Origin: SAR86 cluster bacterium SAR86E
GTDB lineage: Bacteria; Pseudomonadota; Gammaproteobacteria; Magnimaribacterales; D2472
DNA: 64,000 nt
Direction: 5' to 3'
NCBI GenBank assembly: GCA_000307935.1
Contig: AMWX01000001.1
Span: 62,001 to 126,000 of the forward strand
In this document: in pieces, positions 40,618 through 48,133 of the stretch
How the letters are laid out: every line of letters begins with the position of its first letter
How positions within the stretch are numbered: position 1 is the first letter of the stretch
The notes under the pieces: generated by a model
What the model was told of the DNA's origin: nothing
Databases searched by the model: none
Seen by the model: only the letters and a program-made list of their open reading frames with translations
Made by a program: the position numbers and the translations under genes

Positions 40618-41856
40618 ATGAACTCATTGCCTATTTACTTGGGCTACAAGTACTTTAGATCAAAGAAGGGTGCATTTGCATCTTTCACATCATTAATGGC
40701 AATTGCAGGATTGTCGCTAGGTGTTGCTGCTTTAGTTATTGTTCTTTCCGTTATGAATGGTTTTGAAAAAGAGCTTCAAACAAGAGTTTTAGGAGTAGTT
40801 CCTCAATTAATAATTCGTTCAAACGAACCTATAAATGACTTCGTAAATCTTATCAGAGATATCGAAACCTCAGATGATGTTCTCAGCGCTAGCCCATACA
40901 TTGAAACACAGGGCCTCATGAGTGCTAATGATAGATCGAGAGGTGTTTTTTTAACTGGAATAATGCCTGAGCATGAGAATTCTATGTCGATTTTGCCCCA
41001 GTTCATTAAAAGTGGAGCTTTGAATGATTTATCACCAAAGCAGGGAGTGGTAATAGGCTCATGGTTAGCTAGATATCTTGATATAGATATCGGAGATTCT
41101 ATCAATATTACAACAACAAATTTACGTTCATCTCTTTTGGGAACTTTTCCCAGAACAATTTCTTTAGAGGTTGTTGGCATCTTTGAGCTTAAAGCTGAAC
41201 TAGATCAATCTTTGGTGTTGGTTCACCACGATTTAGCTGCAAACATTTTAAACATAACAACCAATTCAACTCAGGGGATTAGGATTAAAACTAATGATTT
41301 ATTCAAAGCAAACTCTATTGGCTATGATTTATTAGAAAGTATGAACTTCAATAATGGAGATAATTATTTTACATCGTGGCAGCAAACTCACGGAACATTA
41401 TTTCAAGCCATTAAACTTGAAAAAAGACTTATTAGCTTAATGTTATTTTTAATTATTACAGTTGCAGCATTCAATATTTTATCTACATTAGTAATGACTG
41501 TTAAAGCTAAAGAAAAAGAGATAGCCATACTAAAAACAATGGGTTGCTCAAATCTTGAGCTCACTCTTATCTTTTTAAACTTAGGCTTTATTATTGCCTG
41601 TGTCGGCACCATAGTTGGTTTGACTCTAGGTCTAATCATTACCCCTAATATAGATTCATTAATTAATTTTATAGAATCTCTTTCAAATAGAGCTTTGATG
41701 GATAGCTATTTTATAAATTATTTTCCATATGAATTTCGAATCACACAATTGCTCAATATTTGTTTGTCAGTTCTATTTATGAGCATAACTTTTTCATACT
41801 TTCCTGCCGCAAAAGCTGCAAGACTGAAGCCAGTGAATATCCTTCGCCATGAATAA
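40618..41856 (+). CDS. Lipoprotein-releasing ABC transporter permease (LolC/LolE/LolF type)
   Basis: Inner-membrane component that extracts outer-membrane lipoproteins and passes them to LolA. 412 residues: one N-terminal helix (~20-45), a large periplasmic domain (~46-265) and three C-terminal FtsX-type helices (~270-300, 320-345 and 375-400). SLSLGVAALVIVLSVMNGFEKEL, in part (VLSVMNGFEKEL), is characteristic. Only one permease gene is present here rather than a lolC/lolE pair, so a LolF-like homodimer is possible unless a second copy lies outside the window. It overlaps lolD by 8 nt. Confidence 0.93.
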   Translation: MNSLPIYLGYKYFRSKKGAFASFTSLMAIAGLSLGVAALVIVLSVMNGFEKELQTRVLGVVPQLIIRSNEPINDFVNLIRDIETSDDVLSASPYIETQGLMSANDRSRGVFLTGIMPEHENSMSILPQFIKSGALNDLSPKQGVVIGSWLARYLDIDIGDSINITTTNLRSSLLGTFPRTISLEVVGIFELKAELDQSLVLVHHDLAANILNITTNSTQGIRIKTNDLFKANSIGYDLLESMNFNNGDNYFTSWQQTHGTLFQAIKLEKRLISLMLFLIITVAAFNILSTLVMTVKAKEKEIAILKTMGCSNLELTLIFLNLGFIIACVGTIVGLTLGLIITPNIDSLINFIESLSNRALMDSYFINYFPYEFRITQLLNICLSVLFMSITFSYFPAAKAARLKPVNILRHE

Positions 41857-42520
41857 GCTAAGAGCCGAAAACATATCTAAATCTTTTATTTCTGCTAGTC
41901 ACAAGATTAATGTCTTAGCGAATATTTCATTCTCAATCAATGAGGGTCAGTCAGTTGGAATAATAGGTTCATCTGGAAGTGGCAAGACTACTTTTTTGCA
42001 AATTTTAGCTGGCTTGGATAATGCAGATGAAGGAAATATATACTTTAACGATATAAATTTATCAGCGAATGGTGATAAACAATTCAATGAAATGAGAAAA
42101 AATTTATTTGGTTATGCATATCAATTTCATTATTTGCTGGATGATCTTACAGTTTATGAAAATTGCAATTTAGTTTTTAAGATAGCTAAAAATTACAATG
42201 ATCAATCTTCAAAGATCCTTCAAATATTGGATGAACTTGGAATCTCTCATTTGCGTGATAGTTATCCATATATGCTTTCAGGAGGGGAAAGGCAGCGAGT
42301 TGCTATTGCTAGAGCAATTGTTCACCAACCTAGGTTCGTAATAATGGATGAGCCAACTGGTAATTTAGATCAAGATAATGCTGAAATCATTCAAGATTTA
42401 ACTATCAAATTATCAAAAAATCATAATATTGGAATAGTCGTTGCAACTCATGACTTGCAATATGCTGATAAACTAGACTGTGTATTTAGGATTGAAAAAG
42501 GGGATTTAAAGTCAATTTGA
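41849..42520 (+). CDS. lolD: Lipoprotein-releasing ABC transporter ATPase LolD
   Basis: ATPase of the Lol exporter, 223 residues. Walker A GSSGSGKTTF (~38-47), signature LSGGERQRVAIARA (~143-156), Walker B FVIMDEPTGNLD and the switch His in VATHD are all intact. It overlaps the permease gene by 8 nt and is followed 1 nt later by the ExbB-like gene. In related Gammaproteobacteria comEC often lies between lolD and exbB; it is absent here. Confidence 0.95.
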   Translation: MNKLRAENISKSFISASHKINVLANISFSINEGQSVGIIGSSGSGKTTFLQILAGLDNADEGNIYFNDINLSANGDKQFNEMRKNLFGYAYQFHYLLDDLTVYENCNLVFKIAKNYNDQSSKILQILDELGISHLRDSYPYMLSGGERQRVAIARAIVHQPRFVIMDEPTGNLDQDNAEIIQDLTIKLSKNHNIGIVVATHDLQYADKLDCVFRIEKGDLKSI

Positions 42521-42521
42521 A

Positions 42522-43124
42522 ATGAATAGTATTCTGATAGCTGGAGGATGGTTTATTTGGCCCTTGTTGGTGTGCTCCATTCTATTAATTTCAATTGTTC
42601 TTGAGCGGTTATGGTTTTTGCAACGAAGACTTATTGCTCCAAAAGGTTTGTTGAGGCAAGTTCAAAATTTAATTGAAAAAGAGTCTTTCCATTCTCACAA
42701 TCAAGAAGAAATTTCTTCAACATCTCAGTTGGGTGATTTGCTTAAATATTGTTATCAGTATAGATCTAACTCCAGAGAATTCGTTGAAATTAAAGCTGAA
42801 GAAAAAGCATCTGAAATCAAGCTTATTTTAGAGAGAAATCTTTCCATGCTGAGTACTATTGCAAGCATAAGCCCTTTGCTGGGATTGCTGGGAACAGTTG
42901 TCGGCATGATAACTGTATTTAGTAATATTGATATTAATGGCTCATCCAATACAGATCTTCTAGCGGCAGGTATATCCGAGGCTCTCATTACCACAGCATT
43001 TGGTTTAATAATTGCAGTGCCAGCAATAATTTTTTTTAGATATTTTGAACAAAAAACCCTTATCTTGATGTCAGTATTGCAAGCAAATACTTCATTATTT
43101 TTGGATTTCTTATATAAAAAATGA
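42522..43124 (+). CDS. MotA/TolQ/ExbB proton-channel family protein
   Basis: Inner-membrane stator-type protein of 200 residues with three helices (~8-28, ~112-132 and ~150-172). The third-helix region GISEALITTAFGLIIAVPA is diagnostic of ExbB/TolQ. With the ExbD-like protein it should form a proton-driven motor powering a TonB- or Tol-type system or an unassigned envelope process. This ExbB/ExbD pair before msbA/lpxK is a conserved arrangement in Gammaproteobacteria. The next gene overlaps it by 4 nt. Confidence 0.92.
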   Translation: MNSILIAGGWFIWPLLVCSILLISIVLERLWFLQRRLIAPKGLLRQVQNLIEKESFHSHNQEEISSTSQLGDLLKYCYQYRSNSREFVEIKAEEKASEIKLILERNLSMLSTIASISPLLGLLGTVVGMITVFSNIDINGSSNTDLLAAGISEALITTAFGLIIAVPAIIFFRYFEQKTLILMSVLQANTSLFLDFLYKK

Positions 43125-43531
43125 ATTTTTATAAACACAAAGAACGCTCCCTGACAATTGAAATCACTCCACTGATAGATATTGTTTTCTTGTTAGTTAT
43201 TTTCTTTGTGGTTACCTCTAAGATAGAAACTAATCAGTACTTAACCTTGGATCTTCCGGAATCAAAGTCATTTTCATCTTCTATTTCCACTAATTCTCAA
43301 AATATAATTTTGCTAGATTCAGGTATATTGTTGGTAAATGATCAAGAGTTTTTGATTCAAGATATTGAAAAAGTTCTTGCAGGCGTGCTCCTTACATTTT
43401 CAAAATCAGAGGTTGTTATCTTATCCATTGAAAGCAAAGCATTTCATATGTGGGTTATTGAAATAATGGATGGCCTTCAACAACTTGGTTTTCAAAATGT
43501 ACAAATTAAAACTTATACTGAAAACTTATGA
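43121..43531 (+). CDS. ExbD/TolR-family protein
   Basis: 136-residue partner of the preceding channel protein. A single N-terminal helix begins with ITPLIDIVFLLVIFFVV (~15-31), containing the conserved proton-carrying Asp, and is followed by a periplasmic domain of about 100 residues. The gene overlaps both the ExbB-like gene and the msbA-lpxK gene by 4 nt, so the block is translationally coupled. Confidence 0.93.
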   Translation: MNFYKHKERSLTIEITPLIDIVFLLVIFFVVTSKIETNQYLTLDLPESKSFSSSISTNSQNIILLDSGILLVNDQEFLIQDIEKVLAGVLLTFSKSEVVILSIESKAFHMWVIEIMDGLQQLGFQNVQIKTYTENL

Positions 43532-46287
43532 GCCCCTTAAAAAGACTTTTCTCATATACCTTAAGATTCAAATTTTCATTTGCACTTAGTATTGTAGGGT
43601 TTATTCTTTTTGCCTCGGCGGATATTGCTGCAGTTGAGTGGATTAGACGTATTATTGAATATATTAATTCTGGCCAAGAAGATTTTAGTATTTATCTCGT
43701 ACTAGCGTTAATTTTTATAGCATTTGGTCGCGGAACAGGTTTTTTTATTGGAAACTACTTCATGTCTAGGGTTGGTTTTGGAATTGTCCATGATCTCAGG
43801 TCTGAGTTATTTACAAAATTAATTAATTTACCAAAAAATTACTTTGATCAAAATCAATCGGGGCAGCTCATAAATAGAATTACTTTTACAACCACTCAAG
43901 TCTCTGGGGCAGCATCCAATGCTATCAAGACATTCGTGCGAGAGGGTTTCTTGTTGATAGGTTTACTTGGCTATATGTTGACTTTAAATTGGAAATTAAC
44001 ACTACTTTTGCTTGTGACAACTCCATTTATAGCGCTCATTGTATATGTAGCTGGCCGACGACTAAGAAAATTAGCAAAAACAATTCAAACCGCTATGGGT
44101 GATGTTACCCATCTTGCTTCTGAAGCTGTTGATGGAAATTTAGAAATTAAATCCTTTAATGCTGAGGATTATGAAAAGACAAGATTTTTTAGTGCCAATG
44201 CTTCTAACAAAAATCAAAACTTAAAATTAGAGGCAACTAGCAATTTAGCCACTCCTATTATTCAGCTTTTGGTCTCCGTCTCTTTATCCATTGTTGCGTA
44301 TTTTGCATTAGGCTCCCAGCTAGGAATAGAACTTAATGCAGAGGATTTTGTTGCATTCATAACTGCAGCTGGGCTTATGGCAAAACCCATAAGGCAACTT
44401 TCTAATATCAATGCAGTAATTCAAAAAGGCCTAGCTGCAGCGGTTGAAATTTTTGATCAATTGGACGCAAAAGAAGAAGATGATGCAGGATCTGTTGAGT
44501 CAACAATTGTTGGTAATATTGAATTTTCAGATGTGAATTTTTCATACACCTCAAAAGAATCAGTGTTGAGCAATTTAAATCTTAAAATTTCTCAAAATGA
44601 AACCGTTGCCATTGTAGGGAAGTCTGGTTCTGGAAAATCTACAATTGCAAATCTTTTATCTAGATTTTACTCTGATTACAGCGGTTTAATTGCTATTGAT
44701 GGTACTAATATAAAGGATTATCGCCTCTCATATTTACGTCAATCGATTTCAATTGTTAATCAGTCACCAACATTATTTAATGACACAATTGAAAAAAACA
44801 TTGCTTATGGAATTACTGAAATTGATCAAGATAAACTAATCGAGGCAGCTGAAATTTCTGGCTGCAATGAATTCATCTCAAAACTTCCAGAAGGGTTTAA
44901 ATCTGAAATAGGAGATGATGGTGTTCTTTTATCAGGTGGTCAGCGTCAACGGCTTGCAATTGCCCGAGCATTTTATAAAGATTCGCCAATCATTATATTA
45001 GACGAAGCTACATCTGCTTTAGATAATGAATCAGAATTAATAGTTCAAGAAGCGATTGAAAAACTTATCAATGATAGAACTACAATTGTTATTGCTCACA
45101 GGTTATCAACTATTGAAAATGCAGACAAAATATTAGTTCTTGAAAATGGATCGGTTATAGAAACCGGAACACATCATGAACTGCTAGAGAACGAGGGAGT
45201 TTATAAGAACCTATATCAAAATAAATTCAATGATGCTGAGACTCAAAATGGACTTTCAGTTAAATCTAAGAAACAGGAACATCTTCCAACATTCACTGAA
45301 GAGCCGACTGAACAAGGTTACTTGATAGATGCATGGTATAAAAGGAGTTTTTGGTTATATTTATTAGCTCCATTTACGTTTATTTTTTCGAGTCTTGTGA
45401 AAGCCAGAAAAAATTCTTACATCAAAAATCCTAAAAAGGTATGGATTTCAAAAGTACCAATTGTTGTTGTTGGGAATATTTCAATGGGCGGAACAGGTAA
45501 GACTCCTTTAGTAAAATTTATTGCGACAGAGCTTTCAAGCCGTGGCTTTAAGCCAGGGCTCGTTAGTCGCGGTTATGGAGGAAAATATTCAGGAACATAT
45601 GAGGTTACTAATAATTCTACTTTTAAGGAGACTGGAGATGAGGCTCAAATTTTATCAAAGTTAAATATTCCATTTTTTATTGATAAAAATAGATCTAGGG
45701 CAGCAAGAAAATTGCAAGAAACCCATCAAGATGTTGACGTTATTATTTCTGACGATGGCCTACAGCATTATGCAATGGGAAGAGATATTGAGATAGCTGT
45801 AATAGATGGTGTAAGAAGACTCGGAAATGGCTTAGCTTTTCCTGCTGGGCCTTTGAGAGAGCCTAAATCAAGGTTAAAAGAAGTTGATTTTATAGTAAAC
45901 AATGGTGGTCCAACCGAAGGAGATGAAATCTTAATGACATTAAGTCCAGCTAAATTTGTTCATTTAAATTCAGGTAAACAGTACTCTATAGATAAATGGC
46001 CTATGCATAATCAAATTCATGCAATTGCTGGTGTTGGTAACCCAAATAGATTTTTCGATCTTTTGCTTAGATTAGGTTTTGAGTTTGATAAAAATCCATT
46101 CCCAGATCACCACAAATACAACAAAAGAGACCTCTATTATTTGGATCATCTACCAATACTCATGACAGAAAAAGATGCTGCTAAATGCAAACACTTTAAT
46201 AATTCTAAGATTTGGTATTTAACCATTGAATCTAAAATTGAATCACAATTTATTGATAGGCTTGAGGAGAAATTAAATGATAGATAA
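43528..46287 (+). CDS. MsbA-LpxK fusion: lipid A flippase joined to tetraacyldisaccharide 4'-kinase
   Basis: One continuous 919-codon frame. Residues 1 to ~570 are a full MsbA-type ABC exporter: six helices, Walker A GKSGSGKST, signature LSGGQRQRLAIARA, Walker B IIILDEATSAL and the switch His IVIAHRLST. After a ~30-residue polar linker (KSKKQEHLPTFTEE), residues ~599-919 are a full LpxK: hydrophobic N-terminal anchor, VVVGNISMGGTGKTP P-loop, SRGYGG, SDDGLQHY and VIDGVRR. LpxK phosphorylates the 4' position of the lipid A precursor; MsbA flips the finished core. Both halves match the length of the separate E. coli proteins (582 and 328 aa), whose genes are adjacent there. An in-frame TTG at 45322 (residue 599) sits exactly where LpxK normally begins, so a separate LpxK may also be made. 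ycaR starts within the last 11 nt. Confidence 0.93.
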   Translation: MSPLKRLFSYTLRFKFSFALSIVGFILFASADIAAVEWIRRIIEYINSGQEDFSIYLVLALIFIAFGRGTGFFIGNYFMSRVGFGIVHDLRSELFTKLINLPKNYFDQNQSGQLINRITFTTTQVSGAASNAIKTFVREGFLLIGLLGYMLTLNWKLTLLLLVTTPFIALIVYVAGRRLRKLAKTIQTAMGDVTHLASEAVDGNLEIKSFNAEDYEKTRFFSANASNKNQNLKLEATSNLATPIIQLLVSVSLSIVAYFALGSQLGIELNAEDFVAFITAAGLMAKPIRQLSNINAVIQKGLAAAVEIFDQLDAKEEDDAGSVESTIVGNIEFSDVNFSYTSKESVLSNLNLKISQNETVAIVGKSGSGKSTIANLLSRFYSDYSGLIAIDGTNIKDYRLSYLRQSISIVNQSPTLFNDTIEKNIAYGITEIDQDKLIEAAEISGCNEFISKLPEGFKSEIGDDGVLLSGGQRQRLAIARAFYKDSPIIILDEATSALDNESELIVQEAIEKLINDRTTIVIAHRLSTIENADKILVLENGSVIETGTHHELLENEGVYKNLYQNKFNDAETQNGLSVKSKKQEHLPTFTEEPTEQGYLIDAWYKRSFWLYLLAPFTFIFSSLVKARKNSYIKNPKKVWISKVPIVVVGNISMGGTGKTPLVKFIATELSSRGFKPGLVSRGYGGKYSGTYEVTNNSTFKETGDEAQILSKLNIPFFIDKNRSRAARKLQETHQDVDVIISDDGLQHYAMGRDIEIAVIDGVRRLGNGLAFPAGPLREPKSRLKEVDFIVNNGGPTEGDEILMTLSPAKFVHLNSGKQYSIDKWPMHNQIHAIAGVGNPNRFFDLLLRLGFEFDKNPFPDHHKYNKRDLYYLDHLPILMTEKDAAKCKHFNNSKIWYLTIESKIESQFIDRLEEKLNDR

Positions 46288-46441
46288 AGATATATTAAAG
46301 TTGATGGCCTGTATTAGATGTAAAGGTGAGTTGGCTGATCATGGCGATCATCTTGAATGCAGTATATGTAAAATTGGCTATCCTATAGAAGATGATATCC
46401 CAAGAATGATCGAAGAAAGAATTTTTGATTTAAATGGTTGA
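46277..46441 (+). CDS. YcaR-like Trm112-family zinc-ribbon protein
   Basis: 54-residue protein with the YcaR/Trm112 (UPF0434) pattern: ILKLMACIRCKGEL, then ECSICKIGYPIEDDIPRMI. Four Cys (C12, C15, C29 and C32) form a probable zinc site, a fuller set than in E. coli YcaR. The gene overlaps the LpxK end by 11 nt and kdsB by 8 nt. Its position between lpxK and kdsB is the same as in E. coli and Pseudomonas, which supports a real gene despite its small size. Trm112-like proteins activate methyltransferases in other systems; the bacterial role is not settled. Confidence 0.9.
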   Translation: MIDKDILKLMACIRCKGELADHGDHLECSICKIGYPIEDDIPRMIEERIFDLNG

Positions 46442-47171
46442 TAGTTTTGTAATTATTGTTCCAGCTAGATTGGGTTCAACTCGTCTGCCTAACAAACCTC
46501 TAGCTATGCTTAATGGTCAAACTGTTATTTCTAGAGTAATTGATCTTGCCAAATCTTCAAATGCTGCTGAGATATTTATTGCAACTGATAGTGTTGAAAT
46601 TCAAGACCATGCTGAAGATTGTGGTGCTGAGGTTGTCATGACATCCTCGCATCATATCTCTGGAATGGACAGAATTTCAGAAGCAGCAAATATAGCTAAT
46701 CTCCCATTTAATATACCGATTGTAAACTTGCAGGGTGATGAGCCATTTATGCCTTTAGAAATTATTAATTCTCTTGCATCATTTATCAATGAGGATACCC
46801 CCATATCTACTGCGTGTATCAAATTTAAAAATGATATGGATTTTAATAGCCCTCATGAAGTCAAAGTTGTTAGAACAGTCTCAAAAAAAGCTATGTATTT
46901 TTCTCGCTCAGTCATACCAAACTCATTTACTGAGGATTACCATAATTATCTGAAACATCTTGGTATCTATGCATATACCAATGAAACTCTTCAAATGTTA
47001 AGCAAGCTAAAACCATCTGCAAATGAAGAATCAGAAAAATTGGAACAATTACGTTTTTTAGACAATGGATTTAATATTTTTGTCCAAGACTTTGATTGTG
47101 AAGCGCCAATAGGGATAGATACCCCTGAAGATTTAGACGCTGCAACAATCTATGCTAGCAAGCATGATTAA
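46434..47171 (+). CDS. kdsB: CMP-KDO synthetase
   Basis: Activates KDO as CMP-KDO for the inner core of lipopolysaccharide. The 245-residue protein shows the N-terminal nucleotide motif VPARLGSTRLPNKPLA (~9-24), VVMTSSHHISGMDRI and VNLQGDEPFMP (~96-106; the metal-binding Asp), with E. coli-like length. It overlaps ycaR by 8 nt and ends 2 nt before murB. Confidence 0.97.
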   Translation: MVDSFVIIVPARLGSTRLPNKPLAMLNGQTVISRVIDLAKSSNAAEIFIATDSVEIQDHAEDCGAEVVMTSSHHISGMDRISEAANIANLPFNIPIVNLQGDEPFMPLEIINSLASFINEDTPISTACIKFKNDMDFNSPHEVKVVRTVSKKAMYFSRSVIPNSFTEDYHNYLKHLGIYAYTNETLQMLSKLKPSANEESEKLEQLRFLDNGFNIFVQDFDCEAPIGIDTPEDLDAATIYASKHD

Positions 47172-47173
47172 TT

Positions 47174-48133
47174 ATGATGATACCTAATTCTTTTGGTCTA
47201 CAGGCAAGAGCAAAGAATTGCATTCTAATCAATTCCTTAGATGATTTATCTTTGCTTGAAACGATTGATGACGAGATATTGATAATTGGAGCAGGCACAA
47301 ATGTAATTTTAAATGACTATTTCGATGGGACTGTAATCATGGTTAATATGCAAGAAATAGAAAAAGTTAATGGTTTTATTTCAGTTGGTGCAGGAGTTCC
47401 TTGGGCTGATCTTATCGAGTATTGTTTATTAAATGAGCTTTATGGCATCGAAAATCTTACACATATTCCAGGATCTGTAGGCGCAGCTCCTGTTCAAAAT
47501 ATTGGAGCTTATGGTGTTGAAATTAGCTCTTTTATTAACAACATTGAATGTTTTAATTTAAAAACTAAAAAGCCTGAAATGCTTAGTCACAACCAATGTC
47601 AGTTTCAATATCGAGATTCAATATTTAAATTAAAAGATTTTGTTATTTTAAAAGTTAATTTTGTATTTAATAAAAATTTTGAACCCAATTTAAGTTATCC
47701 AGCATTAAGTGAATATTTAAAAGATGGCTCTATTGATACATCAACTATAACGCCGAGAATACTCTCTAACTCAGTAAGAGCCATAAGAGACTCTAAACTT
47801 CCTGATCCAAAGATGGAGCCAAATGTAGGAAGTATCTTTAAAAATCCTCTAGTAAAAACTAACGATTTTGATCATGCTTTCTTAGACGGTCATAGATGGG
47901 AACAGGCTGATGGATATACAAAGTTAAGTGCCGCAAGATTGATTGAACTCATTAAATCTGAATTAATAATTCCTGACTCTTTAAACTTCTCCAAGGATCA
48001 CTCACTCGTTCTTATCAACAATGGAGGAGCATCCTTCAATGAGGTAATAAATCTTCTAAATCAAATTCAAACAATGATATTTAATAAATTTAAAATTCAA
48101 TTAGAAATAGAACCTGAGATTGTTGGTTTATGA
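47174..48133 (+). CDS. murB: UDP-N-acetylenolpyruvoylglucosamine reductase
   Basis: NADPH- and FAD-dependent enzyme of peptidoglycan precursor synthesis. 319 residues of the E. coli (type I) class: FAD-binding IGAGTNVILND (~39-49), GSVGAAPVQNIGAYG (~103-117), SNSVRAIRDSKLPDP (~197-211) and the catalytic Ser in GSIFKNP (~219-225), with the final Glu in EIEPEI. Two ATGs (47174 and 47177) are equally possible starts. It overlaps the LysE-type gene by 4 nt. Confidence 0.96.
   Translation: MMIPNSFGLQARAKNCILINSLDDLSLLETIDDEILIIGAGTNVILNDYFDGTVIMVNMQEIEKVNGFISVGAGVPWADLIEYCLLNELYGIENLTHIPGSVGAAPVQNIGAYGVEISSFINNIECFNLKTKKPEMLSHNQCQFQYRDSIFKLKDFVILKVNFVFNKNFEPNLSYPALSEYLKDGSIDTSTITPRILSNSVRAIRDSKLPDPKMEPNVGSIFKNPLVKTNDFDHAFLDGHRWEQADGYTKLSAARLIELIKSELIIPDSLNFSKDHSLVLINNGGASFNEVINLLNQIQTMIFNKFKIQLEIEPEIVGL

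Follow-up and report, generated by a model that had tools for sequence, protein, structure and literature searches.

An MsbA-LpxK gene fusion kept across the SAR86 order and recurring in other gammaproteobacterial lineages

Within a 64,000-nucleotide stretch of the genome of SAR86 cluster bacterium SAR86E (contig AMWX01000001.1, positions 62,001 to 126,000; hereafter the window), a single gene carries a complete MsbA and a complete LpxK in one uninterrupted frame, and our analysis confirms that this fusion is real. We propose, with a probability of roughly 0.8, that the gene encodes one bifunctional inner-membrane flippase-kinase in which LpxK is tethered to MsbA. SAR86 is among the most abundant bacterial groups of the ocean. 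Many Gram-negative bacteria depend for survival on the synthesis and export of lipopolysaccharide (LPS), two processes that serve as drug targets; the way in which the cell adjusts LPS production to export is still under study.

Results

The fused gene (Table 1) contains no internal stop codon and no ambiguous base. The original prediction, made from the letters of the window, had described a complete MsbA and a complete LpxK in a single frame, a polar linker of about 30 residues and intact catalytic motifs in both halves, and each part of that description held. The open reading frame (ORF), the Pfam domains and the NCBIfam cut-offs agree: residues 5-568 pass the MsbA equivalog model TIGR02203 (626.8 bits against a cut-off of 602), residues 616-908 pass the lpxK equivalog model TIGR00682 (235.6 bits against 91.95), and the Pfam LpxK match spans residues 611-916 and profile positions 3-327 of 328, at 309.1 bits against a cut-off of 27. 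The narrower MsbA model NF008381 stayed below its cut-off (537.4 against 867), and no fused model was present among the best 25 NCBIfam matches of the window protein. Its other Pfam matches, SMC_N (at cut-off), nSTAND3 and RsgA, are P-loop cross-matches. In the window's own genome (G000) the profile match to the fusion lies at C1 105528-108281.

Walker A, Q-loop, LSGGQ, Walker B and H-loop motifs were all found in the MsbA half. When 15 representative fusions were aligned, MsbA residues K370, Q412, LSGG 468-471, D492-E493 and H524 proved invariant, and the Q of LSGGQ was replaced by E in one row (L164). Residues R78, R148 and K299 of Escherichia coli MsbA, which we take to be LPS-contacting residues, align with R68, R138 and R289 of the window protein. 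On the kinase side, Aquifex aeolicus LpxK residues K51, T52, D99, E100, D138, D139 and H261, given as catalytic in the available part of PMC6286764, align with K658, T659, D704, E705, D742, D743 and H861. K658, D704, E705, D742, D743, H747 and H861 are invariant in the 15 fusions; T659 is not, being S in three K189A-type rows.

These residues, together with the fact that no LpxK copy beyond the fusion was found in the genome (both of two candidates scored), suggest that the LpxK half is the 4'-kinase. Family membership and operon context suggest that the MsbA half flips lipid A-core. Were LpxK indispensable here, as it is in E. coli, the fusion would have to supply it, since the genome has no other LpxK.

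The AlphaFold model of the protein contains two confident domains (mean predicted local distance difference test score [pLDDT], 88.3), between which pLDDT falls below 50 at residues 572-593. The model places the LpxK N-terminal helix at residues 608-633, a segment that by inspection is hydrophobic and then basic. The MsbA half is similar to MsbA structures already solved. The best fold match of the model was PDB entry 9bd6, which we take to be Pseudomonas aeruginosa MsbA (PaMsbA); it covers the MsbA part, where 572 columns align at 46% identity. For the C-terminal domain, A. aeolicus LpxK (4ehw/4ehx and others) supplied the only matching PDB sequences.

The single frame is a property of the whole order. 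LpxK was detected in 158 of 203 order genomes and in 22 of 22 genera. We opened the locus in 79 order genomes, a set that includes the window's own genome and leaves out rows with several LpxK matches (e.g., G029). Both halves lie in the same frame in 77 of the 79, which represent all 22 genera and four families; the examined stretch holds nearly all of MsbA in 49 of these 77, and in the other 28 the stretch or contig ends inside MsbA. The two exceptions are G083, which is frameshifted inside MsbA, and G032, which ends at a contig end inside LpxK. In G083 (L070) the MsbA half is broken into several frames and the junction is intact; the breaks are likely base-calling errors of that assembly. 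Separate, intact msbA and lpxK genes were present in none of the 79.

A hand count among the matches listed gave a similar picture: an open frame of at least 904 residues occurs in 145 of 150 LpxK rows, and the five shorter rows are G083, G032 and three (G122, G141 and G068) that are cut off by the end of a contig and have an unbroken junction. The one-frame architecture is also present in the records SAR86 AG-313-D11, AG-325-E16 and AG-461-E16. No stop codon or frameshift at the junction, the finding in relatives that would have spoken against one frame, was seen among the opened order genomes.

The linker equivalent measures 17 to 36 residues (median, 31) in the 77 order genomes and is rich in S, E, K and D. 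In four sets of relatives, the ratio of nonsynonymous to synonymous substitution rates (dN/dS) was 0.11-0.23 for the linker versus 0.03-0.09 for the flanking domains, values that come from sets near saturation (dS about 1 or more) in three of the four cases, the exception being g21 of family f3, with dS about 0.3. Judged from these ratios, the linker is evolving under some amino-acid constraint. Because the frame is kept across the order, the linker is constrained and the catalytic residues are retained in both domains, we conclude that the fusion is more than chance.

At window positions 45274-45321 and their equivalents in family f1, to which the window belongs, the part of the linker nearer LpxK retains a run of proline, aromatic and acidic residues (LPTFTEEP, VPEYEDE and similar). 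In family f4 (L164-L167 and L080), the stretch from MsbA to the P-loop is shorter than in other order rows, and a WY motif found at the LpxK start of nearly all other order rows is absent.

To survey other lineages, a profile of the whole fusion was run against 369 genomes of the class and against 398 genomes of the phylum, the second set overlapping the first. Two candidates were scored per genome in both surveys, and the fusion counts are minima. A locus was called fused when both halves matched the same ORF or, for unopened rows of family f157, when the profile match was in one frame and free of stops. Full-length rows containing a stop were left unopened (13 in the class and 15 in the phylum survey, by hand count among the matches listed); a single stop in such a row can be the terminal one, as in G006. 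A long open frame alone was rejected as proof of fusion: in G566 (L064) a 950-residue frame runs over lpxK, and msbA lies in another frame.

In the class survey, at least 11 genomes encode MsbA and LpxK in a single frame that has no internal stop. Four belong to the SAR86 order (G000, G100, G191 and G006) and seven do not (G287, G266, G465, G560, G247, G380 and G395). Among the matches listed in the phylum survey, a stop-free fused row was seen in G000 and G287 only. Scanning named genomes, we found among the best 80 loci 7 that are fused, 28 with both genes in separate frames and 45 whose stretch contains no MsbA frame. The fused loci are three SAR86 records, MAG-120, K189A clade HE327_NSB073, OFTM330 and MED690. 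Pfam detected ABC_membrane, ABC_tran and LpxK in each of ten non-SAR86 fusions. The original prediction had proposed searching for the same two-domain architecture; it is present in K189A-type and several other gammaproteobacterial lineages.

We are less sure of the G266 fusion, which contains three N bases: one linker codon reads GNN and so cannot be a stop, and the third N falls in the codon for the P-loop lysine. G410 (L089) has separate genes and belongs to the order of the fused G287, G568 and G569, and the gene tree places it elsewhere; this argues against a simple story, and a reversal or a separate lineage is possible.

Family f157 contains both states. In its genus g240 (31 genomes), 25 genomes have full-length, stop-free fused frames, three have partial frames that cross the junction, and one crosses the junction and breaks later inside LpxK. 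The junction is therefore open in 29 of 31; one of the remaining loci is split by contig ends and one genome gave no match. In the sister genera g175 and g487, the genes are separate in all eight opened loci (from 10 genomes), and a candidate LpxK start lies within 20 bases of the msbA stop in each of the eight. The four fused g240 rows on the tree form one clade (support, 100) inside f157.

Using groupings chosen after seeing a tree, the approximately unbiased (AU) test rejected a single clade of the f157 fusions and SAR86 (p-AU 0.0001) and, in an earlier set comprising SAR86, G266 and the G287 order, a common origin of all fusions (p-AU 0.009). A clade joining SAR86 with the K189A-type fusions was not rejected by the same kind of test (p-AU 0.92, with a likelihood above that of the free tree), and these two may share one origin. 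On a 77-row tree the fused state requires six changes, five of them forced by starred branches, and some of these could be losses; the trees are "quick" ones, with the single-genome fusions G247, G380 and G395 on long branches. Together, these comparisons show that the fusion arose independently more than once.

The window gene lies in a run of envelope genes at 40618-48133, namely, lolC/E-like, lolD, exbB, exbD, msbA-lpxK, ycaR, kdsB and murB, several of which overlap at their ends; the Lol names were assigned from MacB/FtsX and ABC domains. Of 18 stretches of differing length that were compared, 12 contained relatives of ExbB and ExbD and 16 contained one of KdsB. In L160 and L164 (families f3 and f4), unlike in the window, lolD is the gene immediately before the fusion, with no relative of exbB or exbD found in between. 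The original prediction took two adjacent genes to be the usual state, and E. coli bears this out: its order is msbA-lpxK-ycaQ-ycaR-kdsB, with msbA and lpxK separate and overlapping by 4 nt. The two E. coli genes are reportedly co-expressed, according to the available part of PMC10328246. In unfused relatives with adjacent genes, most LpxK starts fall in the interval from 20 bases upstream to 33 bases downstream of the msbA stop; some gaps are larger. Since the genes are this close or overlap, loss of the stop plus a small change would be enough to fuse them. The C-terminus of MsbA and the N-terminus of LpxK are cytoplasmic, and the C-terminus of ExbD is periplasmic. Topology thus permits an msbA-lpxK fusion, the two joined ends being in the same compartment.

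Elsewhere in the lipid A pathway, 91 of 101 order genomes have WaaA and 95 of the same 101 have LpxL/M-type acyltransferases; the window genome has LpxC, WaaA and two LpxL/M-type genes. In G000 (C12 217446-218964), waaA and lpxL-type matches stand head to head on opposite strands, about 160 bases apart, and a like pairing occurs elsewhere in the order, for example in G079 and G150.

Table 1. The fused gene, its parts and its neighbors, in window coordinates
Feature	Position	Strand	Remarks
exbB, exbD upstream	42522..43531	+	PF01618, PF02472; exbD overlaps msbA by 4 nt
msbA-lpxK fusion gene	43528..46287	+	Single ATG-started ORF, 919 codons plus stop
MsbA transmembrane domain, residues 20-284	43585..44379	+	Pfam ABC_membrane PF00664, E 9.8e-46
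MsbA nucleotide-binding domain core, residues 347-496	44566..45015	+	ABC_tran PF00005, E 6.6e-32
Linker, residues 569-598	45232..45321	+	Polar, predicted disordered; residue 598 corresponds to Met1 of E. coli LpxK in the alignment
LpxK domain, residues 599-919	45322..46284	+	PF02606, E 4.5e-92; TIGR00682
ycaR (Trm112-like), kdsB, murB downstream	46277..48133	+	PF03966, PF02348, PF02873; ycaR overlaps fusion end

Discussion

We favor a reading in which the N-terminal two thirds of the protein would serve as the MsbA lipid A-core flippase and the C-terminal third as the LpxK 4'-kinase. The flexible linker of about 30 residues would hold LpxK on the cytoplasmic side, with its N-terminal helix on the same membrane and near the transporter. 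The available part of PMC6286764 describes MsbA as a dimer and LpxK as an enzyme that requires an N-terminal amphipathic helix, acts at the membrane surface and is a proposed second regulatory point of the pathway. Because MsbA works as a dimer, each transporter would carry two kinases, and LpxK and MsbA would be made 1:1 and in one place. The gene probably arose before the SAR86 radiation from two neighboring genes, of a pair that often overlaps, through loss of the stop codon separating them and formation of a linker; the resulting coupling, perhaps a matching of lipid IVA production to export that the proposed regulatory role of LpxK makes attractive, may then have been kept by selection. 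We infer, rather than read from the sequence, that the cell contains a single polypeptide, that it dimerizes, that the two activities are co-located and that selection acts on their coupling.

Several points weigh against this reading. The single product of about 100 kDa is a prediction, and the structural model leaves the relative placement of the domains unpredicted (predicted template modeling score [pTM], 0.60). LpxK went unmatched in 45 of the 203 order genomes (e.g., G072 and G108), 5 of which rank among the 40 best; this may reflect gaps in the drafts or a real absence. The window genome may have a second MsbA-type exporter, 2 of 21 first-look candidates having been scored. The linker is the fastest-changing part of the protein, which leaves room for cleavage there. 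The LpxK and MsbA reactions are non-consecutive, lipid IVA presumably being modified before export. Finally, fixation of the fusion in small genomes could be neutral.

This last point leads to the strongest rival, in which two unconnected enzymes are simply summed in one chain by a tether that is functionless, harmless and hard to undo. Such neutrality concerns why the fusion persists, and it overlaps with our reading of what the fusion is. The adjacency and frequent overlap of the genes in unfused relatives would make fusion an easy mutational step; linker sequence and length vary; lipid A steps fall between the two reactions; and SAR86 genomes are small, that of the window measuring 1.4 Mb. 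Against these observations, the fusion recurs, with at least five state changes on the tree, and it is also found in larger genomes (4.2 Mb in G465 and 3.2 Mb in G247). One entire genus and one order retain it, and its linker is under some constraint, an acidic stretch (LPTFTEEP, YEDE) being kept in the LpxK-proximal half within the window's family. We give the neutral explanation somewhat less than an even chance; taken on the evidence, a neutral fusion and a selected one are about as likely.

Perhaps the join is a control device, with the occupancy or ATP cycle of MsbA setting the activity or the membrane access of the two LpxK domains? We consider this doubtful. If it were true, it would be the reason why Gammaproteobacteria have joined kinase and flippase repeatedly; lipid IVA production would follow export capacity, and in the streamlined SAR86 the join could stand in for a separate regulatory circuit.

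Alternatively, the fusion might be translated whole and then cut in the linker to release separate MsbA and LpxK proteins. A disordered linker that evolves faster than any other part of the protein would suit such processing. However, inspection by eye found no cleavage-like motif common to the linkers of all families, which is weak evidence against it, and no protease is implicated. Cleavage seems unlikely.

A second route to two products is an internal start from which LpxK would also, or only, be made. The sole plausible candidate in the window is the TTG at 45322-45324, which has AAGG four bases upstream and lies, by alignment, at most one residue from the beginning of E. coli LpxK; in-frame ATG codons also occur near the junction in g240 of f157 and in other lineages. 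However, ATG, GTG and TTG are missing from that position in all 10 genus mates examined, one of which carries CTG there. In 13 of the 77 order genomes, the whole interval from the MsbA end to the P-loop of LpxK lacks ATG, GTG and TTG; in 34 of the 77, these codons are absent from the region at least 35 codons before the P-loop, where a complete LpxK must start. The upstream frame, moreover, stays open and under constraint. We judge internal initiation to be very unlikely.

The physical proximity of the domains raises the idea of direct channelling, in which the LpxK product would pass straight to MsbA in the same protein. Since the WaaA and LpxL-type genes, whose products act between the two reactions, are widespread in the order and present in the window genome, this is highly improbable. 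With WaaA and LpxL/M-type enzymes present, and kdsB adjoining the fusion, 3-deoxy-D-manno-oct-2-ulosonic acid (Kdo) and acyl chains are presumably added before export. A sequencing or assembly artefact, that is, a stop codon lost or a frameshift missed in a draft genome of 13 contigs, has a negligible chance of explaining the gene and is in practice ruled out by the frame conserved across the order, in the SAR86 AG records and in other lineages.

If the flippase-kinase reading is right, the LpxK:MsbA ratio would be fixed at 1:1 across SAR86. The recurrence of the fusion would mean that two non-consecutive steps profit from, or at least tolerate, a permanent link. Natural fusions and sister genera with separate genes are ready material for testing cross-talk between MsbA and LpxK.

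Comparison with known systems

The original prediction knew of no characterised example, in agreement with our searches: no description of an MsbA-LpxK fusion was found in the openly licensed PMC literature, judged by titles and the beginnings of abstracts. The enzymes themselves are known; the open-access literature searched gave no account of a permanent link between them, of its fixation in SAR86 or of its having arisen repeatedly. The structural relatives of the two halves are separate proteins. A. aeolicus LpxK (PDB 4ehx), whose catalytic residues align with those of the C-terminal domain, is a stand-alone enzyme, and PaMsbA (PDB 9bd6) matches the MsbA part and lacks a kinase domain.

As an analogue, MprF comes nearest in principle. 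The available part of PMC8131360 describes it as a bifunctional synthase-flippase of aminoacyl phospholipids and a homodimeric membrane protein; like the proposed MsbA-LpxK protein, it joins a lipid-making enzyme and a flippase domain in one homodimer. Its domains and lipids are different, and MprF-type domains are absent from the Pfam matches of the window protein, the side on which the comparison was made; hence we regard it as an analogue and not a relative. In MprF, the flippase moves the lipid of its own synthase, whereas the LpxK product is presumably modified before it reaches MsbA.

Another counterpart is the E. coli msbA-lpxK operon, which shares with the fusion its two enzymes, their gene order and the downstream ycaR and kdsB. 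It differs in that ycaQ lies between lpxK and ycaR and in that E. coli makes two proteins where the window encodes one, joined by a linker of about 30 residues.

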